Positions 5,078-26,041 of a stretch of 33,875 nt of DNA are shown in pieces; position 1 is the stretch's first letter; each line of letters opens with the position of its first letter. Made by a program: the position numbers and the translations under genes. Origin of the DNA: Clostridiales bacterium (GTDB taxonomy: Bacteria; Bacillota; Clostridia; Oscillospirales; Oscillospiraceae). The notes beneath the pieces are model-generated. The model did no database searches and was not told where the DNA came from. It saw nothing but the letters and a program-made list of their open reading frames with translations. The DNA is taken from contig JAAVHX010000029.1 in NCBI GenBank assembly GCA_014799475.1, positions 1-33,875 of the forward strand. The letters are read 5' to 3'.

Positions 5078-6109
5078 ATGGATATAGACACATTAAAGAA
5101 AACAATTCAAGATTTTTTCCAAGAAAACACCTTGACAATTGTTGGTTCAGGCCTTTCTCTATCAGAAGGTATACCTGGGATGAAGGAACTCTCTGTTGAA
5201 CTGACAGCAAAAGTTCCTCTTTTGCTGTCAGATGCTTCAGACATAAGTGTTTGGAATAAAATTGATAGCGATTTATCAGCAAATGTTGGTTTAGAGCAGG
5301 CTCTTCATAATACAGAACCAAGCCCATATATTGAGGATTGCATTAGAAAAATAACAGCAAAGTTCATTGGTAGTGCCGAGACAAAGGTTTTACTTGATAT
5401 AATCCAGCGTGGCAAAGTATTGAGATTTACGGAGTATTTGCATCATTTCAATATACGCAACAACGGATTAGTAGTTGTCACCACAAATTATGATAGGCTT
5501 ATTGAATATGCCTGTGAATACAACAATATACGCGTTGACACACTTTTTATCGGAAGATTTTTAGCGCATTTTGAACCAGAACAAAGTAGATATTCATTTT
5601 GCCAAAACATTGTTAAACGACCTGGCAAAAAACCTGAGGCGGTTTTTGCGCCCAAAGTAACCATCTTGAAGCCGCACGGATGCTTAAGTTGGCATATGGT
5701 AAATGGAGAACCGTATTCTATACCAAACTATCCATTCGATGACTGCTTAATTATTACACCCGGCGTCAATAAATATAAAGAAGGATATAGTAATCCTTTT
5801 GATGCGCACAGAACAAGAGCAAATTTGGAAATTGATTGTGCGCAGAGATACATTATTATCGGCTATGGGTTTGGAGATGACCATCTGGAAACACACCTAA
5901 TCAAACAGTTAGAATGCGGGAAACCCGCATTGATACTGACATACGCACTATCACAAAAAGCGAAGGAACTTGTCAAACGCTGTAAATATGTAACGGCCAT
6001 CATACACGATGGGGCGAATGGCTCAATCCTTATAACAGCGTCCGGAGAAACACAATTCCGAGATGTTAACTTATGGGATTTGCAGGCAATGTTAAGGGAG
6101 GTTTTTTAA
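5078..6109 (+). CDS. SIR2-like NADase of a SIR2-HerA defence system
   Basis: A 343-aa cytoplasmic protein of the SIR2-like (SIR2_2) class. These proteins hydrolyse NAD+ during abortive antiphage defence. The NAD-binding fingerprint is at residues 20-33 (TIVGSGLSLSEGIP). The catalytic Asn/Asp lie in VTTNYDRLIEYA (N137, D139), the catalytic His in LKPHGCLSWH (H200), and the Rossmann end strand is IIIGYGFGDDHL (261-270). All expected active-site residues are present. GAGAAGGTG lies five bases before ATG 5078. Its TAA overlaps the HerA ATG (TAATG), so the two are translationally coupled. This arrangement matches known SIR2-HerA operons, in which the two proteins form a large complex and HerA controls the nuclease/NADase output. 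Base use is AT-rich, unlike the core genes. Confidence 0.9.
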   Translation: MDIDTLKKTIQDFFQENTLTIVGSGLSLSEGIPGMKELSVELTAKVPLLLSDASDISVWNKIDSDLSANVGLEQALHNTEPSPYIEDCIRKITAKFIGSAETKVLLDIIQRGKVLRFTEYLHHFNIRNNGLVVVTTNYDRLIEYACEYNNIRVDTLFIGRFLAHFEPEQSRYSFCQNIVKRPGKKPEAVFAPKVTILKPHGCLSWHMVNGEPYSIPNYPFDDCLIITPGVNKYKEGYSNPFDAHRTRANLEIDCAQRYIIIGYGFGDDHLETHLIKQLECGKPALILTYALSQKAKELVKRCKYVTAIIHDGANGSILITASGETQFRDVNLWDLQAMLREVF

Positions 6110-7848
6110 TGCCACAATTACTTGCTTTTACAGAGAATGATTTTCTAGGACGAGTAACATATGTAGACACAGAGCAAATCATCGTTGAAATTGAAAATTC
6201 TAATATTATGAACCAAATTTGCGTAGGAAATATTACTGCAATAGAAACCGGAAAGCGACACGAGCAACTAATTGCGCTGATTGATAAGGTCACAAGAAAA
6301 TATGTTGATGACCTTGACAAAGACGCCGCTGATCAAAATGAGATGATGATATCCTCTGCAGATTATGTTAGGGTCAGTGTAATTGGGACATATCATTCTG
6401 TCTTTGGTACAGCACATGATATTTTTAAACGCGGTGTAGATACGTTCCCCCGAATTGAAAGTAAATGTTATTGTGTATCCGGCAACAATCTTCAAGGCTT
6501 TATGAATATCCTAAGCAAGGATATCGCAACAGAAAAAAGGTTAAAGATTGGTTCTTTTTTAATGGATGTACATGCAGATGCTGTCCTAGATGGGAATCGC
6601 TTCTTTCAACGCCATGCCGCCGTTCTGGGGAGCACTGGTTCCGGAAAAAGTTGGTGTATTGCCAACATATTAGAAAAGGCAAGCGCATTGAAGTATAGTA
6701 ATATCATTGTGTTTGACATGCATGGCGAATATTCTAAATTGGCAGAGGGTCCAAATAAGATTGCTGAGCGATTTCGTATCGCTGGACCTGGAGATTTAGA
6801 GAATGCTGAACAGAATGTGTTGTTTCTGCCATATTGGCTTTTAAATCGCGAGGAGCTTTTATCAATGATTCTCGACCGGAGCGACTCAAATGCGCCAAAC
6901 CAAGCTTCACGGTTTACTTTGCATGTACGGGAATTGAAAGCAGAAACGTTAACTCACGAAGGGAAAACTGAGACATTGAAAACATTTACAGTGGACTCTC
7001 CAGTGCCCTTCTTGATGACAGATCTCCTAGCTCGCCTAAAAGATGATGACACACGTAAAGGAGTAGGGAAAAATAACGCACCAGTGAAAGGTGACTGGGA
7101 AGGAAAGCTAACTCGCTTTATTTCACGGCTGGAGAGCAAACTAGAGGATAAGACATATGGTTTTATGTTCCAACCCGCAGATGAATCTCAAAGCTATGAC
7201 TGGCTCAGTAAAATACTATGCAAATTACTGGGATACACCGATGGTCATACCGGCATAAAAATTATTGACTTTTCGGAGGTGCCGTCTGATGTGTTGCCTG
7301 TTATCACTGGTACATTGGCACGTCTCCTATATAATATTCAATTTTGGATGAATCCAGATCAGAGAACACCGTTTACACTCATATGTGATGAGGCACATCT
7401 GTATTTGCCAATTAGAGAAGATGCTGATGCAGTGCAGAGACAAGCCCTCTATAATTTTGAACGCATTGCGAAGGAGGGCCGAAAATACGGAGTATCAATT
7501 CTTGTGGTCAGTCAGCGGCCAGCCGATGTAAGCAAAACAATTTTGAGTCAGTGCAATAACTTTATTGTGCTAAGACTGACAAATGAACGAGATAAAAGTG
7601 TCATTAAAAATTTGTTGCCAGATTCGTTGAAGAGTACGATTGAATTCCTCCCGCTACTTGATGTTGGTGAGGCTTTGGTAGTGGGAGATGCAATCTTGCT
7701 ACCCAGCAAACTGCTCTTAGACAAGCCAACTGAAGATCACCAACCAATTAGTGCTACCAAGAATTTCTGGGATGAATGGGATCAAAATAAACCAGATAAT
7801 GATGCCGTTATGGGTGCGGTGGAGGCATTACGCCGTCAAAGTAGATAA
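6109..7848 (+). CDS. herA: HerA-type hexameric ATPase of SIR2-HerA
   Basis: A 579-aa DUF87/HerA ATPase. ATG 6109 was chosen over upstream in-frame starts because AAGGGAGG is 8 bases before it and it couples to the SIR2 stop codon. Residues 10-60 look like a HAS-barrel (FLGRVTYVDTEQIIVEIEN). Walker A is GSTGSGKS (174-181), followed by FDMHGEYSKL (202-211), typical of HerA/FtsK. Walker B is TLICDEAHLYLP (D427, E428), followed by VVSQRPADVSKTILSQCNN (469 onward) with the likely arginine finger, and a C-terminal LLPSKLLLDKP brace. All ATPase motifs are intact. HerA hexamers translocate on DNA; here the partner is the SIR2 protein, so it probably acts as sensor and scaffold of the defence complex. 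No nuclease domain is fused to it. Confidence 0.9.
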   Translation: MPQLLAFTENDFLGRVTYVDTEQIIVEIENSNIMNQICVGNITAIETGKRHEQLIALIDKVTRKYVDDLDKDAADQNEMMISSADYVRVSVIGTYHSVFGTAHDIFKRGVDTFPRIESKCYCVSGNNLQGFMNILSKDIATEKRLKIGSFLMDVHADAVLDGNRFFQRHAAVLGSTGSGKSWCIANILEKASALKYSNIIVFDMHGEYSKLAEGPNKIAERFRIAGPGDLENAEQNVLFLPYWLLNREELLSMILDRSDSNAPNQASRFTLHVRELKAETLTHEGKTETLKTFTVDSPVPFLMTDLLARLKDDDTRKGVGKNNAPVKGDWEGKLTRFISRLESKLEDKTYGFMFQPADESQSYDWLSKILCKLLGYTDGHTGIKIIDFSEVPSDVLPVITGTLARLLYNIQFWMNPDQRTPFTLICDEAHLYLPIREDADAVQRQALYNFERIAKEGRKYGVSILVVSQRPADVSKTILSQCNNFIVLRLTNERDKSVIKNLLPDSLKSTIEFLPLLDVGEALVVGDAILLPSKLLLDKPTEDHQPISATKNFWDEWDQNKPDNDAVMGAVEALRRQSR

Positions 7849-17266: not shown

Positions 17267-18064
17267 TCACTTTGCCGGAAGTCCTGACTTATGAATTGGC
17301 GCGGATGCGTCTTTTCTGCTTCTGAACGTCTGGTCATCCCAGGCAATCACGACAAGGCCGAGGTCGTCTCCACTGCGCTTGGAGAAAATCTGCCGCATAT
17401 TGAACTCCAGAGCCTGGCTGATAGTCTCTTCATCGCCGTCCTCAAGCCAGCGCGCAATGGTGCCGCAAGCCGGGGCGGGTTCCCCCGTGCTTTGCTGGTA
17501 CAGGCTCTCCGCCATGCCGTCGCTCATCATCAGCAGCGCTCCCGGATCTTCCAGTCTGCCTCTGTGAAGGCGGAGATGCTCCGCCGCATCGTCGGTGGTA
17601 ATGAAGAAGGTCTCGTTTTGATACACTCCATTTTCCGGAGGGCTGAATACCAAAGCTGTGCCGTTCTGAACGAACACCTGGACACCGTCTCCCAGGTGCC
17701 CGGAGAGATAACGGCCATCGGCATGACCGGCAAAGAACAGCAGCGTGCTGGCCAACTCATAAATCGGAGGCTCCTGCTGGCAAAGAACCCGCGTACAAGT
17801 CTGTATCAGTTCCTCCGCTAGAACGCCATCCTCCATGGCCCAGAGATCATCGAACCGCCGGCACAGCAGCTCCGAGGTGCACTGCGTCACGCAGGCCGCC
17901 CCCAGATCGCTGCTGGCACAGCTTCCCGCTCCGTCCGCTAGGGCGGCGCAGACTGCGTATCCGTTCCGATACAGCGCGACCTTGTCCTGACAGGGGCGGC
18001 CGGCGGAGAGGTGGCTGCGGCCCGCACAGGCGGCCAGGCTGATTTTATACTCCATCCGCCTCAC
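17267..18064 (-). CDS. PP2C-type protein phosphatase of the kinase/VWA operon
   Basis: A 265-aa PP2C-fold Ser/Thr phosphatase (PP2C_2-like), cytoplasmic. Metal-binding motifs are in the expected order: RPCQDKVALY (first Asp), ALADGAGSCASSDLGA (DG-G motif, here DGAGS), GHLGDGVQVF, LLMMSDGMAESLY and the closing SGDDLGLVVI. Start GTG 18064 overlaps the VWA stop codon by four bases (GTGA); ATG 18055 three codons further in is an alternative and gives a more usual family start (MEYKISLAACAGRSHLSAG). It is the last gene of the operon with the Sel1, kinase and VWA genes, and probably removes the phosphates set by the kinase. Kinase, PP2C and TerY-like VWA together match the TerY-P triad described by comparative genomics. 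Confidence 0.9.
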   Translation of the reverse strand: MRRMEYKISLAACAGRSHLSAGRPCQDKVALYRNGYAVCAALADGAGSCASSDLGAACVTQCTSELLCRRFDDLWAMEDGVLAEELIQTCTRVLCQQEPPIYELASTLLFFAGHADGRYLSGHLGDGVQVFVQNGTALVFSPPENGVYQNETFFITTDDAAEHLRLHRGRLEDPGALLMMSDGMAESLYQQSTGEPAPACGTIARWLEDGDEETISQALEFNMRQIFSKRSGDDLGLVVIAWDDQTFRSRKDASAPIHKSGLPAK

Positions 18065-18813
18065 CGCTGCTTCCGCTCCAGGACCTCACCCCAGGTGGTG
18101 GTGGGGTCATAGCGGACTTCCTCCCCGCTCATGGACTGACTGGTCTTTTCAATGCTCCGGCTGAGCCAGGCGAAGAATTCCTGGAACTTCATATCCCGCA
18201 GATATTGGATTCTGCCATCCGGCGAGAGGGTCATTAAAGAAGCGCACTTCATCCGCTGCTCATCGCCCACGGTGATGCACAGCACATTCAGGTGCTTGGC
18301 GTCACTTTCTGCCTTCAGAAGTTCCGCCGCGTGAGCCAGTTCCCGGGGAGATTGGCTCTCGTCACCGTCGCCGATCAGAATAAGCCAGGGGCGGTACCAG
18401 GTGATACCGTTGTCCCGGTAGCGGCGCTTGCGCAGCTCCAGGTTCTCCAGTGCGGTCTTCACCGCATCCGCAAGGGGCGTAGCCCCATCGGCGGTGAGCC
18501 TGGGGAGCCCCTGCTCAAGGATGCGGTCCGGTGTGGCAAAGTCCCGCTCCACCCGGGCCATGGGGCCGCCATAACTGATGATACAAAGCTCCGCCGAATC
18601 CCTGGCAATGGGGTCCCGCTCCATGTCGCGGCAGAAGGAGTCCAGCCCCTCCAGCACCCGGTCCAATCGCCGCTGCTGGCGCATGGAGAAGGAACAGTCC
18701 ACACAGATGACCACCGGCGTGCGGGTCTCGGGGTTGGTGACCAGGTCGCCCTCCTCCAGCAGATAGTCCTCCGGCGTTTTGTTGGGGAATCTCCCCGCTG
18801 TTTTTTTCGGCAT
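18061..18813 (-). CDS. TerY-like VWA domain protein
   Basis: A 250-aa protein. ATG 18813 is preferred: AGGAAGGAG stands eight bases before it, whereas GTG 18822 lies within that site. The von Willebrand A domain covers about residues 25-215. It has an intact MIDAS: DCSFSM (DxSxS) after VVICV, the Thr in DGATPLADAVKTAL, and the Asp in LILIGDGDES. The stretch GITWYRPWLILIGDGDE is the TerY signature. VWA proteins of this type are thought to be scaffolds that bind partners through a metal in response to a signal. It starts 35 bp after the kinase and overlaps the phosphatase, so all are one transcript. Confidence 0.9.
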   Translation of the reverse strand: MPKKTAGRFPNKTPEDYLLEEGDLVTNPETRTPVVICVDCSFSMRQQRRLDRVLEGLDSFCRDMERDPIARDSAELCIISYGGPMARVERDFATPDRILEQGLPRLTADGATPLADAVKTALENLELRKRRYRDNGITWYRPWLILIGDGDESQSPRELAHAAELLKAESDAKHLNVLCITVGDEQRMKCASLMTLSPDGRIQYLRDMKFQEFFAWLSRSIEKTSQSMSGEEVRYDPTTTWGEVLERKQR

Positions 18814-18847
18814 TTCTGTCACTCCTTCCTGAGTTTAGCCGCCCTTT

Positions 18848-21800
18848 TCAGCGCCACGCATTAAGGCACTTGGGACAGAGGACCGGCTTCCCGAACCGGC
18901 GGAGCCGCTCCAGCTTGTCCCGGCCGGTGCGGAAGGTCTCCCGGCAGTCCGGCCCCTCACAGGAAACCAGGGGCCGCTCATAGTCCAGGCAGCTGGGGCA
19001 CAGCGGCCGGATATTCCTGGAGCGCAGCTCCTCCAGCCAGTCCCGGGAGATCGTGTAGCTGCTGCCGCAGCGGCTGCAGGCGGTTTGGGCATTGGCGCAG
19101 TCCGGGCAAAGCATGGGCAGTCCCTTCCACGTCCGCTCCCGCCAAATGGAAACCAGCGTCTCAAAGGGAGTCCCGCAGACATCGCAGGGGATCGTGTACT
19201 TCCGTTCCCGGAAATTTCGGTACATGATGCGGTGGGTGGGACAGAGGTCCGGCTCCCGGTCGCTGCGGCGGCGATAGGTCGCCTCGTCAATATTATAGGA
19301 TTTTCCGCACTCTGAACAAACTTTATCCAGCATGGTGCCGTCTATATCCTTGAAGCCCTCCGGGGTCAGCTCATCGCTGCTGTGCACCAGTTCGATCTGA
19401 CGGACATACTCCCGCAGGATCCCCTCCCACTCCCCGGCGGAGAGGCGGCCCTTTCCTGTAAAGGTGCTGTGGAAAGCCGATTTTACCTGGTAGGTCATGT
19501 GGCTCCAGATCTCCCGCCACCGTCCTACCGGAGTCTGGTCCGTGTAGCCCTCCTCCTCGCCGGCGCGGAAGGGATAGGGAAAGTTCCCAGCGATGATGGC
19601 GTCCAGCACATTGTCGCTGTCCGTGCTGCGGCTCTCGTAGGGAGATTTGCCCAGCATCAGGACCTCAAACAGCACCACGGCCATGGAATACCGCTCGTGA
19701 TCCAGCGTCCGGAGGTAATTGTAGTTCTCCTGGCCGCTCCGGCGAACCTCCTTCAGAACCTCCGGCGGCGTATACCGGTCCGACCGCACCGGACAGGGAA
19801 AACCGCCGAACTGATAGCTGTCACAGTCCACGAAATAGACAGCGCAGTTGGGGGCCACCATAAAGTTCCTGGGATTGACATCCCCCATCAGGATGCCCTT
19901 TTCGTGCATTTGCGCAAAGGCCCCCGCGATATTGGCGGCGATGAGGGCCAGGCTTTTCCGGGTCCAGCCCAGGGCCATGATATTCCGGTTGTTCCGGCCC
20001 GGCTTATAAACGGTCTGGCACAGCTCCCTGGCCTCGGCTTTGGGCATCAGATAGCCCGCCCATTCGCCGCCGGAAGTAAAGACCAGCGCCTGGGGCCAGC
20101 AGAGTCCCGGAATATCGGGAGAGGCCGCCGTCATATGGCGCAGCTTTTCCCGCCGTTCCTCCGTTAGCTGGTCCTGATGATAAATTTTGACCACGGCCCG
20201 ATTCCGCCGGCTTACGGCATAGACGGTGCCTTCGCCTCCGGCGCTGCCCACCGGGCTGCCCAAAATAAGCTCCTGACGGGATCCGTCAGGCAGCTCCGCC
20301 GTGACACGGCTTCCAGTTTTGGGCTGCTTCTTCATAGAAAGGAGCGTCTTAGAGGAACCGCCTTGGGCCAGGACAGGCGGGGCGGATTCCGCCTGACGCG
20401 GCCGGGGCTCTTGCGGCGCCGAGGCCTCCGGAGCCCTGCCGGACGGCGGCGGAGGGGCTTCCGGTTCTGATTTATCCTCCGTTAGCATAGCCAGATAGCT
20501 GGCCCTGGTATCCCGGTACAAAAGCAGCTCCCCGTCTACGCAGGGCTTGGCGGCGGCGGCGTTGGGGAACTCCTTCAGTTCCCCGGCCAGCTGCCGATCC
20601 ATGGTCAGCGCCAGGAATCGGTTTTCCGGATAATCCTCCGCCACCTGGCGGATGTTTACATAGCTCCGGGTGCTGGAGGTAGGGCTGAACACCACCTCCA
20701 GGCACTTGCGCTGGCGCAGGAACCGGAGGGTCTTGATGGCGGTTTTGCTGTTTTTATGGGCTTTCTGGCGCTGGTCGGACAGCTCTTCCGCCATATCCGG
20801 ATCCAGTTCCGCCAGCTCCAGGGCGGTGTAGGGCGCGCTGCCGCGAAACGCGCTGAACAACCCCGCCACCACAGATTCATCCACCAGAAGCTTTTCGTGC
20901 CGCCGCGCCAGCAGAGGCGCCAGCCGTTCATTCAGCAGCTCGCGGCCCTCGGCAGAGAGAAACATGCTCTCGTCCACCAGCAGCGTAAAGCAGTCCAGTA
21001 TGGCAGACAAGACGCTCTCCCGGGGCGGGAGCATGGTCCCGGTTCGCTGAAGCAGCGCGGCGGCGTCTCTGTGGCTTCTCAATGGGCGGAGGAGCCGCTT
21101 CTCATGCTGCCGGGAGGTTTTTTTTGCCGCAGGGCGTTTCTGCGCCCGCTCCGCGGCCTCCCCTTGAGTAGCGGCGGGCTTTTTGCCCAGCAGGGCGGCT
21201 ACGCTGGGAGACCAGCTCAGCTTCTCTTTGAGAACTTGCCGGTCCTCCTCATAGACCATGCCATTTTGGCACGAAAGCCGCAGAAAGTCGGCGGCCTCCT
21301 CCAGCGCCTGTGTCTGCTGAGGAGTGAGGCCGTCCTCGGAGAGGAACAGCTCCCGGCCCAGCTCCTCCAGGGAAATGGGCGGGTATCCGAACATGTCCCG
21401 GCACCTGGCCTCAATCCGCTCCCAATATGCCTCCAAGGGCTCCAGGGGGTCTTTCCAGTCAGGCGTCCAGCCGGTTTTCCGCTGGATGGGCGCGGTGAGC
21501 TGTTCCAGGAGATTTAGGTCGTTTTCAATGGATTCCCGTGTGATTCCATCCACTTCTTCAGAGCCGTCATGCGCTTTCCGATTGCGCAACTTGATGGATT
21601 CCCGGAGCACATCTTCATAGGGTGCTTTGGGATAGCGGCAGCCGCGCTTCCCGGTGCGGATACCCACCTGGAAGGTCTTGAAGAAATTCAGGCTGTCTGA
21701 GGCGAATCCCTTGCCGTCCGGCAGCTCCCGTTCCCCGCCATAGAGCAGATACTTGTTATAAGCTTGAATATCCAGCTTTTCATAGGGACATTCGGGGCAT

Positions 21801-22024
21801 TTCCTGGGGTTGTTTCCGTCCCACTCTTTCATGATCGCTTCACCCCTGCCTCCGATGAGGAACAGGTTCTTCCAGAATACCTCGTCCGTCAGCTTCGCCT
21901 CATGGTTGGCATACTTCACCGCCGCGGCTACGTAGTTGGTGATTTGGAACAGCACCTCTTTGACGAAGAAATGGCCCTTCCGCCGCTGTTCCGCATCAAG
22001 CTCCAGGTTTTTTTGCTCACTCAA
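18848..22024 (-). CDS. Multidomain kinase: HEPN-like + PIN-like + protein kinase + zinc ribbons
   Basis: A 1058-aa protein starting at TTG 22024 with GGAGG eight bases upstream. Residues 1-185 are helical with a CPECP knuckle (76-80) and KLRNRKAHDG, an R-x4-H motif (R147...H152) typical of HEPN RNases. Residues ~345-510 look like a PIN nuclease: FTLLVDESMF (D351), KLLVDESVVAGL, TALELAELDPD, SKTAIKTLRFL and ALTMDRQLAGEL (D476). After a Pro-rich linker (518-560) comes a Ser/Thr kinase (590-880): glycine loop GSAGGEGTVYAV, VVKIY lysine, catalytic MGDVNPRNFM (HRD altered to MGD), and DCDSY in place of DFG. Four CxxC...CPxC zinc-ribbon-like units fill 903-1053. It sits 30 bp after the Sel1 gene and before VWA and PP2C. 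Kinase and zinc ribbons are firm; the HEPN and PIN calls are by motif only. Confidence 0.8.
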   Translation of the reverse strand: MSEQKNLELDAEQRRKGHFFVKEVLFQITNYVAAAVKYANHEAKLTDEVFWKNLFLIGGRGEAIMKEWDGNNPRKCPECPYEKLDIQAYNKYLLYGGERELPDGKGFASDSLNFFKTFQVGIRTGKRGCRYPKAPYEDVLRESIKLRNRKAHDGSEEVDGITRESIENDLNLLEQLTAPIQRKTGWTPDWKDPLEPLEAYWERIEARCRDMFGYPPISLEELGRELFLSEDGLTPQQTQALEEAADFLRLSCQNGMVYEEDRQVLKEKLSWSPSVAALLGKKPAATQGEAAERAQKRPAAKKTSRQHEKRLLRPLRSHRDAAALLQRTGTMLPPRESVLSAILDCFTLLVDESMFLSAEGRELLNERLAPLLARRHEKLLVDESVVAGLFSAFRGSAPYTALELAELDPDMAEELSDQRQKAHKNSKTAIKTLRFLRQRKCLEVVFSPTSSTRSYVNIRQVAEDYPENRFLALTMDRQLAGELKEFPNAAAAKPCVDGELLLYRDTRASYLAMLTEDKSEPEAPPPPSGRAPEASAPQEPRPRQAESAPPVLAQGGSSKTLLSMKKQPKTGSRVTAELPDGSRQELILGSPVGSAGGEGTVYAVSRRNRAVVKIYHQDQLTEERREKLRHMTAASPDIPGLCWPQALVFTSGGEWAGYLMPKAEARELCQTVYKPGRNNRNIMALGWTRKSLALIAANIAGAFAQMHEKGILMGDVNPRNFMVAPNCAVYFVDCDSYQFGGFPCPVRSDRYTPPEVLKEVRRSGQENYNYLRTLDHERYSMAVVLFEVLMLGKSPYESRSTDSDNVLDAIIAGNFPYPFRAGEEEGYTDQTPVGRWREIWSHMTYQVKSAFHSTFTGKGRLSAGEWEGILREYVRQIELVHSSDELTPEGFKDIDGTMLDKVCSECGKSYNIDEATYRRRSDREPDLCPTHRIMYRNFRERKYTIPCDVCGTPFETLVSIWRERTWKGLPMLCPDCANAQTACSRCGSSYTISRDWLEELRSRNIRPLCPSCLDYERPLVSCEGPDCRETFRTGRDKLERLRRFGKPVLCPKCLNAWR

Positions 22025-22054
22025 CTGCGCGCCCTCCTCTCTCTGTTGTTCCGG

Positions 22055-25039
22055 TCAGCGGATGTCAAGCTCTTTTTGGGCCTTTTCGTGGCCCTGGTCC
22101 GCCGCCTTTTGCAGCCACTCCCGGGCCTCCTGGGGCAAGCCCCGGCTGAAAAAGCTCTTTTTCGTCTCCTTGTAAAGCATCCCCAGCTCATACTGGGCGT
22201 CAGCCAGGCCCTGGTCAGCGGCCAGCTTCAGCAGCCGTTCCGCCTCGGCCAGATTTTTGGCAATGCCCCGGCCGTTTTTATAGTTCCTGCCAAGGTTGCA
22301 CTGTCCCCAGTAATACCCCTGTTCCGCCGCCTTGCGGTACCATTCGTTGGCCTGGGCAAGGTCCTGCTGTACGCCTTTCCCATTGGAATAGCAAGCCCCC
22401 AATGTGTTCTGCGCATACTTGTTGCCCTGTTTGGCAGCCTTCAGGTACCATTGCACCGCCTGGGCGTAGTCCTGTCGTACACCCCTGCCGAAGTAATAAC
22501 AGCTTCCAATACCGTTCTGCGCCTCCGCGTCTCCCTGTTCGGCGGCTTTGCGGAACCATTCTGCGGCCTGAGCGTAATCCTGTTTCACACACCGGCCATG
22601 GTAATATAATAGGCCTAAGCTTCTTTGGGAAATGACGTGACCCTGTTCAGCCGCCTTGCGGTACCAAATCACGGCTTGGGCGGCATCTTTTTCCACACCC
22701 CAGCCTTCCTCGTAAAAGCGCCCCAGCCAGTTCTGCGCGTCCTTGTCCTCCTGTTCGGCGGCTTTACGGAACCATTGCATGGCTTGAATATAGTCTTGTT
22801 CTACACCTGTGCCATTCTTGAAGCACATGCCCATATTGTGCTGGGCGGCGGCCAGTCCCGCCTCGGCGGCTCTGCGATACCATGCCACGGCTTGAACGAC
22901 ATCCTTCTCCACGCCCCAGCCTTCCTCATAGCAGCGCCCCAGCCAGTTCTGGCCATTGGGGTCATTTTGATCCGCGGCTCTGCGGAACCACTGCATCGCC
23001 TGGGCTCGATCCTTCTCCACGCCCCAGCCGTCCAGATAACTGTGTCCCAATTCGCACTGAGCCTGTGCGTCGCTGGCCTCCGCGTAAGTGCGCCATCCTC
23101 TGACAGCCTGAGCGGAGTCCGCTGTCCAGAACTTCCTGGAAAAGATGTTGTCTATCTGATCCTGAGCTCGCTCATTGCCCTGCTTTGCCGCGGCGCGCAG
23201 AAGCTGCAAGCCTCGAGCGGGGTTCTCCTCAACAATGTCGCCTTTAAAATAGTGGTTGGCCAACAGGTACTGCGCCAGGTCACAGCCCAGCTCCGCCCCC
23301 TTCTGGAAGCAGAACGCTGCCTGGGCCGGGTCCTTCTCCACGCCCTTGCCCTCTAAATAGCACTCTCCCAGATTCTTATACGCGAAGGAAACATTTTGCT
23401 CTGCCGCTTTCCGAAGCCAGAAAATTGCTTTTTCGAAGTCTATGGACACACCGCAACCGTCAAGATAATAGAATCCCAACTGGTTTTGGGCTTCGCCGTG
23501 CCCCTGTTCCGCAGCCTTATAAAGCCAGGGAAACGCGGAATCATAATCAAAATCATAGTATTCATTTCCATAAAGGTACCCCAGATTGTACTGGGCTTCG
23601 GCCAGTCCCTGCTCCGCCGCTTTGGTGTACCACAGCTTCGCCTGGTCAAAATTTTCCTGCATGCCATTGCCAAAGAAATAGCAGTCGCCTAAATAGTTCT
23701 GGGCCCGGGCAAGGCCCTGTTCGGTAGCTTTGCGGAACCATTCCACTGCGGAAGCATGGTTTTGCTCAACACCGATGCCCCAATAGTAGCATTCGCCCAG
23801 GATGCTCTGAGCATTGGCATGGCCCTGCTCCGCGGCCTTGCGGTACCAATCCGCGGCCAGAGTTTTGTCCTCCTCGACTCCTTTGCCGTTGTAATAGCCG
23901 AAGCCCAGATTGTACTGCGCTTCGGCAAACCCCTGTTCCGCAGCCTTCCGGTACCACTCCATCGCTAAAGCTGCATCTACCTCAACGCCCTGTCCGTAAT
24001 AATAGCAGGTTCCCAATTGATTCTGCGCTTCCGCAAGCCCCTGCTCGGCGGCTTTACGGAACCATTCCACGGCCAGAGGTTCGTCTTTCTCAAACTCTGT
24101 GCCCCAGTAATAGCACCTGCCCAGACTATACTGGGCCCCGGCGTGCCCCCGCTCCGCTAGGATGCGGAAAAGCTCAGCCGCAAAGGCGTCGTCCCGTTCC
24201 TCCGAATCGAAACGGGAGAACCGCAGGGCGGCGTCGTAGACTTCATTCTCATCGTCCACTTGGGCGCAGCGGAGCAGGTCTTCCTTTTCCTGGGCCAATT
24301 CTGCCTGCCGGGCCTCCCGGGCCCGCTCCTCGGCGTAGAAACGCTCCTCCGCATTCTCGACCCCCGCGGCCTGGGCCTTCCGCAGCCAGCTCAGCGCCCG
24401 GGCCGGGCTGACGGCCACCAGGTCCCCGGTTTTGTACCGGCGGGCCAGGGACAGCTTGTCCTCTCCGCCGCCCAGGTCCGCGGCCCGGGTGAACCACAGC
24501 TCCGCCTCGTTAAGGTCCTGGTCCACGCCACAGCCTTGGCCGTAGCACACCGCCAGCACTACCATAGCCTCCGGCAGGCCGCAGTCGGCGGCGTTCCGCA
24601 ACAGTGCTGCCGCTTCCTTGTCCTTTCCCTGGCCCTGCCACCGCTTGGCCAGCGTCAGGCAGGCTTGGGGATGGCCCTGGTCCACGGCCATGGAGAGATA
24701 GCGCTCCGCGTCCGCATCGCCTCCGACCATGCCGCCCTCCATTAAAAACCGCGCCACCTGATACTGGGCCTCCGCATCGCCGTCCTCCGCCGCCACGCAC
24801 CAGTCCGGCAGAGTTTCCTCGGTCAGAATCTCAGAGATTGATTCCGTCTGGCCGGAGCCCAGCAGTGCCTGCGCCGAGCTGTGGCCCTGTTCCGCCGCCC
24901 GGCGAAGCCACCGCTCCGCCTGCTGTCCGTCTTTTTCTGTGCCTGTACCGTGGAGCCAGCAGAGCCCCAGCTGATATTGCACCTCCGGATCGGATTGATC
25001 AGATTCCAGCAAATCCTCAAAACGTTCTTCATCTGTCAC
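22055..25039 (-). CDS. Giant Sel1-repeat protein, first gene of the kinase operon
   Basis: A 994-aa protein starting at GTG 25039, with AAAGGGG eight bases upstream. Almost the whole chain is about 25 Sel1-like (TPR-related) repeats of ~36 residues with the consensus A-x-W-[FY]-R-K-A-A-E-Q-G-x-x-x-A-Q-x-x-L-G followed by YY-x-G-x-G-V-x-x-D. Repeats near residues 140-260 and 560-600 are degenerate. There is no signal peptide, so it is probably a cytoplasmic superhelical scaffold or sensor that binds peptides or partner proteins. A consensus promoter lies just upstream, and the kinase follows after 30 bp. In this operon it most likely recruits substrate or an activating ligand to the kinase. 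The near-identical repeats may cause length variation between strains. Confidence 0.9.
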   Translation of the reverse strand: MTDEERFEDLLESDQSDPEVQYQLGLCWLHGTGTEKDGQQAERWLRRAAEQGHSSAQALLGSGQTESISEILTEETLPDWCVAAEDGDAEAQYQVARFLMEGGMVGGDADAERYLSMAVDQGHPQACLTLAKRWQGQGKDKEAAALLRNAADCGLPEAMVVLAVCYGQGCGVDQDLNEAELWFTRAADLGGGEDKLSLARRYKTGDLVAVSPARALSWLRKAQAAGVENAEERFYAEERAREARQAELAQEKEDLLRCAQVDDENEVYDAALRFSRFDSEERDDAFAAELFRILAERGHAGAQYSLGRCYYWGTEFEKDEPLAVEWFRKAAEQGLAEAQNQLGTCYYYGQGVEVDAALAMEWYRKAAEQGFAEAQYNLGFGYYNGKGVEEDKTLAADWYRKAAEQGHANAQSILGECYYWGIGVEQNHASAVEWFRKATEQGLARAQNYLGDCYFFGNGMQENFDQAKLWYTKAAEQGLAEAQYNLGYLYGNEYYDFDYDSAFPWLYKAAEQGHGEAQNQLGFYYLDGCGVSIDFEKAIFWLRKAAEQNVSFAYKNLGECYLEGKGVEKDPAQAAFCFQKGAELGCDLAQYLLANHYFKGDIVEENPARGLQLLRAAAKQGNERAQDQIDNIFSRKFWTADSAQAVRGWRTYAEASDAQAQCELGHSYLDGWGVEKDRAQAMQWFRRAADQNDPNGQNWLGRCYEEGWGVEKDVVQAVAWYRRAAEAGLAAAQHNMGMCFKNGTGVEQDYIQAMQWFRKAAEQEDKDAQNWLGRFYEEGWGVEKDAAQAVIWYRKAAEQGHVISQRSLGLLYYHGRCVKQDYAQAAEWFRKAAEQGDAEAQNGIGSCYYFGRGVRQDYAQAVQWYLKAAKQGNKYAQNTLGACYSNGKGVQQDLAQANEWYRKAAEQGYYWGQCNLGRNYKNGRGIAKNLAEAERLLKLAADQGLADAQYELGMLYKETKKSFFSRGLPQEAREWLQKAADQGHEKAQKELDIR

Positions 25040-25101
25040 GGTGGAATCCCCTTTCCCACATTGTAATCTCTCTATAGGTCAAGGCTGGTTTTTCGGGATT
25101 T

Positions 25102-25130
25102 ATTATAGATTCTTTCCAGCTGATTTGCAA
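25102..25130 (-). promoter_or_regulatory. Promoter of the Sel1-kinase-VWA-PP2C operon
   Basis: On the minus strand TTGCAA (25130-25125), 17-base spacer, perfect TATAAT (25107-25102). The transcript would start near 25095, 55 bases before the GTG start of the Sel1 gene. The promoter lies inside a decayed gene fragment. Confidence 0.7.
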
Positions 25131-25327: not shown

Positions 25328-26041
25328 ATGTATTCTATTGTTGCAGGTATTCCCGACGTTGGCTTCGGAGTATCACAGGTTATGCCGGTGCTTGTGGAGC
25401 TTTTTTATGCTCCTGTTGGCGCAACAATACTAATGGAGCAGCCGGAACTGCATCTGCATCCAAGCGCTCAAGCTGCGCTTGCAGATGTGATGATTTCAGC
25501 TATAAAAGCTAGAGAAGATGCAAAACAACGTAATATTCAATTGATTATTGAGACTCATTCAGAACACTTTCTGCGCCGTTTCCAAAGACGAATTGCTGAG
25601 GGAAGCATTGATTCCAGCCAAGTGTGTGGGTACTTTGTAAATACAACCAATGTACCCGTTACTTTAGAGGCGCTGCAAATAGATTTATTTGGAAATATCA
25701 TCAACTGGCTAAAGCATTCTATTTATTATGATCATCTTCCAGATTACTTCATTGCATTTGATGTGTTTGATACAAAAGAACAAAAGTTTTTTTCTGTTCA
25801 AAGGCGAAATGCGCTGCTGAAAAAGACCAATGTTGCAATTGTACCTAAAATTGGATATGGAAGGTTTGATTTGGACTATTTGTTAGCAATGGAATTTACC
25901 TCAAGTTATGGAGACGAAACGAGCGAAGGAATCTATTTAAGGCGCGATTCTGAAAAATGGTTAGAATGCAGAGCTAAAATCGTTAGGGCTAATTTCTCAC
26001 AGAGCATAGGAGTGCATTGGAGTAAAAAACTTTGGAACTAA
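25328..26041 (+). pseudogene. Chimera: DUF3696-type ATPase tail fused to RNA ligase tail
   Basis: An open 237-codon frame joins two unrelated gene ends. Residues 1-~118 are the end of an AAA_21/DUF3696 (OLD-like) ATPase: DVGFGVSQVMPVLVEL, Walker B ILMEQPELHLHPSAQ, IIETHSEHFLRRFQRRI and TLEALQIDLFGNI. No Walker A is present. From about residue 123 it becomes the last part of an Rnl-type RNA ligase: HSIYYDHLPDYFIAFDVFD (motif III-like), VPKIGYGRF, SSYGDETSEGIYLRRD (motif IV) and RAKIVRANFSQSI with HWSKK (motif V). The KxDG lysine of motif I is missing. ATG 25328 has no good ribosome site. Both halves lack their catalytic start, so it is probably a deletion scar from two defence or repair genes, though an in-frame fusion protein could be made. 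Confidence 0.7.

Follow-up and report, generated by a model that had tools for sequence, protein, structure and literature searches.

The 33,875-base contig JAAVHX010000029.1 of a Clostridiales gut bacterium (family Oscillospiraceae; assembly GCA_014799475.1, 46 contigs) was analysed over its entire length, referred to here as the window, and carries on its minus strand four adjacent genes that encode, in order, a Sel1-repeat protein, a protein kinase, a VWA protein and a PP2C phosphatase. The kinase protein bears a HEPN-like part and a PIN-fold part ahead of its kinase domain and zinc ribbons behind it. We propose, with a probability of roughly 55%, that this operon is a phospho-signalling module of the TerY-P type in which an RNase effector is built into the kinase. 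As a gene set, it is a rare four-gene variant of TerY-P whose kinase carries a fused HEPN-like part and whose constant partner is a Sel1 protein. An earlier note, made from the DNA letters alone, had not recognised the combination; consistent with this, no description of HEPN-PIN-kinase/VWA/PP2C/Sel1 was found in the open-licence literature.

Sel1 and kinase genes are separated by 30 bp and kinase and VWA genes by 25 bp, while VWA and PP2C genes overlap by 4 bp, bearing out the close spacing that the earlier note had described. This set of four turns up again in three further genomes, which rules out a chance arrangement. Searching 99 related genomes with the kinase returned, outside the organism's own genome, one near full-length match (G055, 42%) and four partial kinase matches. 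A scan with a two-row alignment of contigs from 84,980 species matched 110 stretches, two of which were confirmed: L013, on the G055 contig, and L014 (65%); both scan patterns lie in the HEPN-like part, and relatives that differ there can be missed. G270 was found when 394 genomes of the order were searched. The four distinct loci (window, L013, L014 and G270) each contain kinase, VWA, PP2C and Sel1 genes, and two of the relatives are metagenome-assembled genomes of Oscillospiraceae.

The candidate effector is the N-terminal region of the kinase protein, where a HEPN-like R147-x4-H152 had been pointed out. The window protein reads R147-N148-x3-H152, and R, N and H are kept in all four members, generally with R-x4-H spacing and in G270 with one inserted residue (RN-x4-H, or R-x5-H); all four hold R-x4-6-H, at domain identities to the window of 28-55%. 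Among 162 gap-free columns of the four sequences, 26 are invariant, and these include N148 together with R147 and H152 as the sole invariant arginine and the sole invariant histidine. In 20,000 column shuffles an invariant RN-x3-5-H arose in 0.015% and R-x4-6-H in 1.9%. An AlphaFold2 model from the four rows predicts helices at residues 11-43, 86-95, 136-150 and 163-176 (predicted local distance difference test score, pLDDT, of 45-84 by block within residues 1-180), and places the motif at a helix end with a further helix after it, as in Swt1-type HEPN domains. Profile-profile comparison, run against four controls as well as three HEPN families, ranked Swt1-type HEPN first; its score was 28.7 when the profile had two Swt1 rows and 22.3 when it had three. 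Against a twelve-row Swt1 profile, hhalign gave 22.2, compared with a column-shuffle maximum of 17.3 (n=60) and 12.2 for the reversed profile; on this target the accepted HEPN families Abi_2 and AbiU2 scored 25.4 and 19.8. Five HEPN_Swt1 matches were considered for these profiles: L054 and L055 entered the twelve-row profile, L057 and L058 fell under the cut-off, and the divergent L056 was used in the profile that scored 22.3 and afterwards dropped. A HEPN_Swt1 match in the organism's own genome (C24) was set aside, its 3.4-kb locus having no match to the four operon proteins. Taken together, the motif, the arrangement of helices and a weak similarity at profile level make it likely, in our judgement, that the N-terminal region is a HEPN domain.

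The second nuclease-like part behaves differently. Residues 340-515 adopt a PIN fold by AlphaFold2 prediction and structural comparison, and the two aspartates singled out by the earlier note, D351 and D476, are present; the E2 position is a glycine and the D3 position a serine. Over the four HEPN-kinases, D1 is kept in 4/4, E2 in 1/4, D3 in 0/4 and D4 in 3/4. With most of the catalytic acids gone from these four proteins, the PIN part is probably not a working nuclease, and the loss of E2 and D3 led us to reject two live nucleases as the principal explanation; most likely there is one phosphorylation-controlled RNase, not two. The earlier note had counted non-nuclease folds, or homologues lacking R-x4-H and the PIN acids, as evidence against its proposal, and the outcome is divided: R-x4-H is held in four of four and the PIN fold is predicted, but the PIN acids are mostly gone.

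The remaining TerY-P components are all in place, as the earlier note had set out for that triad: a VWA protein, a PP2C and a Ser/Thr kinase with a C-terminal zinc ribbon, encoded side by side. VWA_2 matches the VWA protein at E 6.9e-10 with an intact metal-ion-dependent adhesion site (MIDAS; DxSxS, T, D), and PP2C_2 matches the phosphatase at E 9.8e-38 with its metal-site motifs kept, in agreement with what had been read from the letters. The kinase domain matches Pkinase at E 5.4e-5, under the Pfam gathering score. NCBIfam matched none of the four operon proteins above a curated cut-off. Its glycine loop and catalytic Asp, noted before, proved sound on alignment: Lys613, Asp715, Asn720 and Asp733 are conserved in 17/17 kinases, and the loop ends in GGEG or GGQG in 16 of the 17 (VGEG in L014). 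Two long-branched rows, G162 and Photobacterium, were left out of this check and of the second of two trees. The kinase tree allows the HEPN proteins to form one group beside the PIN-kinases, a group that requires one origin and is weakly supported (45/83 with 19 rows, 68/84 with 17). A single-sequence fold of the whole kinase protein (mean pLDDT 36.5) was not used. C-terminal to the kinase domain, the window protein has C-x2-C pairs at residues 903, 947, 973, 983, 1009 and 1050. A ribbon region is therefore there, as had been claimed, but its supposed four ribbons do not correspond to a constant number of pairs, which is six in the window and L014 and four in L013 and G270.

These findings also bear on a different assignment of roles, in which the kinase itself is the effector, phosphorylating host or phage proteins to halt growth, while the two N-terminal parts, HEPN-like and PIN-like, serve as RNA-binding sensors with no catalytic role. 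One of the two domains already appears non-catalytic, the kinase residues are intact in all 17 rows checked, and eukaryotic Swt1 HEPN is described as possibly inactive and RNA-sensing in the passages of PMC3710099 drawn on here. Moreover, Nei-Gojobori ratios of nonsynonymous to synonymous substitution rates (dN/dS) between window and L014 are lowest of six parts in the kinase domain (0.10, against 0.15 for VWA, 0.20 for PP2C, 0.23 for HEPN, 0.27 for PIN and 0.41 for the ribbons), with the HEPN dS of 1.5 close to saturation; saturation is stronger in the three other pairs compared, whose dS runs from 1.06 to beyond correction and whose ratios are 0.12-0.54 where computable. Identity between window and L014 is lowest in the HEPN part (56%) and highest in VWA (85%). 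Pure binding does not, however, require that R, N and H be retained in every member at domain identities of 28-55%, and we regard an effector kinase as unlikely.

The Sel1 protein matches PF08238 at E 1.3e-185 over 20 stretches, confirming the large Sel1 gene that had been placed in the operon. Among full-length copies the N-terminal ~230 residues align, with Sel1 repeats after them. The window and L014 carry the gene upstream of the kinase; in L013, which has two copies, and in G270 it lies downstream. Because homologues adjoin all four HEPN-kinase operons, we rejected the idea that Sel1 is a chance neighbour. With a tblastn cut-off of E 1e-5, no Sel1 was found in 15 other related-kinase loci, of which three span just 3.7-6.7 kb and to which the fetched loci L051 and L053 do not belong; a search with looser settings yielded a single match of 60 residues, in L048. 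Because it has a strongly hydrophobic stretch (Kyte-Doolittle 2.44 at residue 322) with a long part beyond it, the G270 copy looks membrane-anchored; peaks of 1.23, 0.74 and 1.02 in the window copy and the two L013 copies give no clear membrane segment.

In the mechanism that we favour, the kinase domain and PP2C would between them determine how far the kinase protein is phosphorylated, as reported for E. coli YegI and PphC, with the VWA protein as a metal-dependent adaptor and the Sel1 protein as the input that senses or recruits a trigger. The trigger would lead to kinase autophosphorylation and dimerisation, bringing together two N-terminal HEPN domains; the pair would then cleave RNA and stop growth, in phage defence or stress arrest, until PP2C resets the system. 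The eroded PIN part would probably only bind RNA or hold the fold, and the zinc ribbons may do likewise. We infer the RNase activity, the direction of the switch, the trigger and the defence role. Because kinase and presumed effector share one chain here, the connection between TerY-P phosphorylation and an effector becomes directly testable, with one protein and point mutants.

A defensive role is suggested by kin (TerY-P and CoCoNuT systems), by a viral PIN-kinase triad and by the window itself, which holds a known defence pair: overlapping SIR2-like and HerA genes at 5078-7848, matched by PADLOC at E 3.3e-133 and 4.8e-235. The viral triad, on contig L074 (5335-8814), is a HEPN-less PIN-kinase/VWA/PP2C set directly after tail and lysozyme-like genes. 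The stretch behind such genes is a usual site of phage cargo. This position supports a phage-conflict role for the wider family, and is no proof for the window. L074 is the one locus read of 39 viral loci in the wider kinase alignment; the window kinase itself found no relative among viral contigs and one weak kinase match in a phage collection.

Alternatively, the operon could be a housekeeping stress-signalling module like that of E. coli, with N-terminal domains that only localise the kinase. YegL is the VWA protein of the E. coli set YegI-PphC(YegK)-YegL. YegI autophosphorylates and is dephosphorylated by PphC (PMC13232886, in the passages drawn on here), and our operon shares its high G+C content with the neighbouring gene tex, in contrast to the window's low-G+C stretches. 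Its distribution is unusual for housekeeping, however. The four-gene system is rare: a HEPN-like profile matched 4/400 genomes of the family, counting the organism's own and the fragment G1236, and 1/398 of the phylum, again its own. Within G1236, the match (L063:8943-9110) is a HEPN-like remnant, and the 19.5 kb read there hold nothing that matches a kinase. In addition, a serine recombinase (L013) and a phage-integrase fragment (G270, just at cut-off) lie ~3 kb from the kinases, although the recombinase genes of the window, inside its first 5 kb, are ~12 kb or more from the operon. The L013 neighbourhood also holds a Schlafen AlbA_2 protein, and that of G270 WYL proteins. On this balance a housekeeping module seems improbable.

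Several observations weigh against a TerY-P module with a built-in HEPN RNase. Even at E 10 the window domain matched no Pfam HEPN family, HEPN_AbiU2 reached E 0.089 in one of four relatives, HEPN_Swt1 had no match at E 10 in the kinase loci of four genomes, and a PDB sequence search with the HEPN-like part was empty at E 10. As no HEPN family profile is matched significantly, we term the region HEPN-like and no member of a named HEPN family; the motif seen earlier stands, and a significant profile match at residues 1-190 does not accompany it. Only one of the three HEPN families compared stands out: Abi_2 scored 15.9 (13.7 for its reversed version) and AbiU2 11.2, with the controls at 9.6-12.2. 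On the twelve-row Swt1 target the PIN and kinase parts reached 18.8 and 16.7 as queries (linker 13.7, Sel1 8.6), and the hhalign match covers just 24 columns around the motif at a probability of 4.8% (30% with two Swt1 rows). PADLOC matched neither VWA nor PP2C, gave weak generic kinase matches (PD-T4-6, mad6, MkoA) and one PtuA match within a Sel1 repeat (E 4e-7). The members are just four, all from one bacterial family, and at L014:7758-13085 the Sel1 and kinase genes are each split over two frames, by sequencing error or decay. Structural comparison of a 525-residue model had no HEPN entry among the 50 matches listed, but that list is filled by the PIN part and so carries no weight against HEPN. 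A new helical domain in which RN-x3-H is coincidental, and which is no HEPN RNase, would fit the missing profile and PDB matches, the low hhalign probability and the lack of a match to Abi_2 or AbiU2, yet we give it little credence: the motif holds the region's sole invariant Arg and His, sits at a helix end as in Swt1, and Swt1-HEPN scores best among the profiles compared.

Table 1. Coordinates of the operon and its parts in the window.
Feature	Position	Strand	Remark
Sel1-repeat protein, 994 residues, GTG start	22055..25039	-	Pfam PF08238; homologues beside other three HEPN-kinases
HEPN-PIN-kinase-zinc-ribbon protein, 1058 residues, TTG start	18848..22024	-	
HEPN-like domain, kinase protein residues 1-180	21485..22024	-	
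R147-N148-R-K-A-H152, putative HEPN catalytic motif	21569..21586	-	
PIN-fold domain, kinase protein residues 336-515, eroded acidic site	20480..21019	-	
Ser/Thr kinase domain, residues 585-880, catalytic residues intact	19385..20272	-	
C-terminal zinc-ribbon region, residues 885-1056, six C-x2-C pairs	18857..19372	-	
TerY-like VWA protein, 253 residues, MIDAS intact	18061..18822	-	
PP2C phosphatase, 265 residues, metal-site motifs intact	17267..18064	-	
Promoter-like site TTGCAA, 17, TATAAT, upstream of Sel1	25102..25130	-	Consensus match only

For the single promoter proposed by the earlier note there is a -35/-10-like site matching 10/12 consensus positions. That it is the one promoter of the operon is no more than suggested, because a scan of 8.7 kb found six promoter-like sites on both strands (shuffle mean 2.3) and 19 terminator-like sites (shuffle mean 9.2), some inside genes. 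Just upstream of this site, a short open reading frame at 25328-26041 combines an AAA ATPase end (HEC-03B-like) with an RNA-ligase domain and looks truncated.

Comparison with known systems places the operon close to TerY-P, with which it shares three gene families, tight spacing and C-terminal zinc ribbons on the kinase; it differs in the N-terminal HEPN-like and PIN parts, several ribbons and the added Sel1 gene. Passages of PMC11090510 define TerY-P, report HEPN effectors in the same operons and an association of the triads with restriction and RNA-targeting systems, and cite stand-alone antiphage TerY-P-like modules, a point restated in PMC7699616; kinase, PP2C and VWA genes are also reported with GAP1-N2 systems (part of PMC7159879, which mentions Sel1 once). 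CoCoNuT types II and III-A likewise unite TerY-P and a HEPN RNase (CnuE) in one operon, but there, in the same passages of PMC11090510, the HEPN is carried by its own protein, with helicase and McrBC parts, whereas the HEPN-like part of the window belongs to the kinase chain. CoCoNuTs are marked by a McrB-like GTPase with a coiled coil and by a McrC homologue; none of the 27 window open reading frames scanned was assigned to an McrB or McrC family.

The nearest relatives found outside the HEPN group are triads in which a PIN domain directly precedes the same kinase type, on Paenarthrobacter and Lysinibacillus plasmids, in Fusobacterium, on L074 and in G269, G651, G670 and G876. Unlike in the HEPN group, their PIN acids are largely intact (E2 and D3 in 9/9, D4 in 8/9), with no HEPN seen and no Sel1 in the loci read. 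Individual loci show further features. At L009:4349-5257 and L116:4872-5798, the PIN-kinase has directly upstream of it a helix-turn-helix protein whose PIN-like part is degraded and which may act as a regulator or an antitoxin-like partner. The PIN-kinase at L114:1282-3816 starts with an IF2_N-like domain (E 1.4e-4, under gathering score), a possible link to translation. At L113:6801-13936 two tandem PIN-kinases, one with Asn at D4 of its PIN, stand in a row with a single PP2C gene and two VWA genes, and at L046:8304-11060 an Hsp70-like protein adjoins the triad; CoCoNuTs too carry Hsp70 homologues (PMC11090510, in part).

E. coli YegI is ~30% identical to the window kinase over the kinase domain and has a PP2C partner, but is membrane-bound and, in the passages of its description drawn on here, is given no HEPN, PIN or Sel1. 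Swt1, as in our protein, has HEPN and PIN on one chain; the relevant part of PMC3710099 calls its PIN the nuclease, whereas the window suggests the reverse, with HEPN live and PIN eroded. The same passages, from a 2013 HEPN survey, describe kinases fused to AbiJ N-terminal domains, and KEN is the one direct kinase-HEPN fusion that appears in them; the window protein would add another outside these eukaryotic proteins. In IRE1 and RNase L a kinase and a HEPN-type RNase (KEN) share one chain, which is a functional analogy only: these proteins are eukaryotic with KEN C-terminal to the kinase, our HEPN-like part is N-terminal, and the resemblance to these animal and yeast stress sensors appears superficial. 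Tentatively, and with more doubt than belief, the window protein might be a bacterial counterpart of IRE1 and RNase L that arose independently within TerY-P, where a PIN-kinase gained a HEPN domain, its PIN decayed to a pseudo-nuclease, its own phosphorylation came to drive the HEPN RNase, and the Sel1 solenoid serves as an exchangeable sensor.
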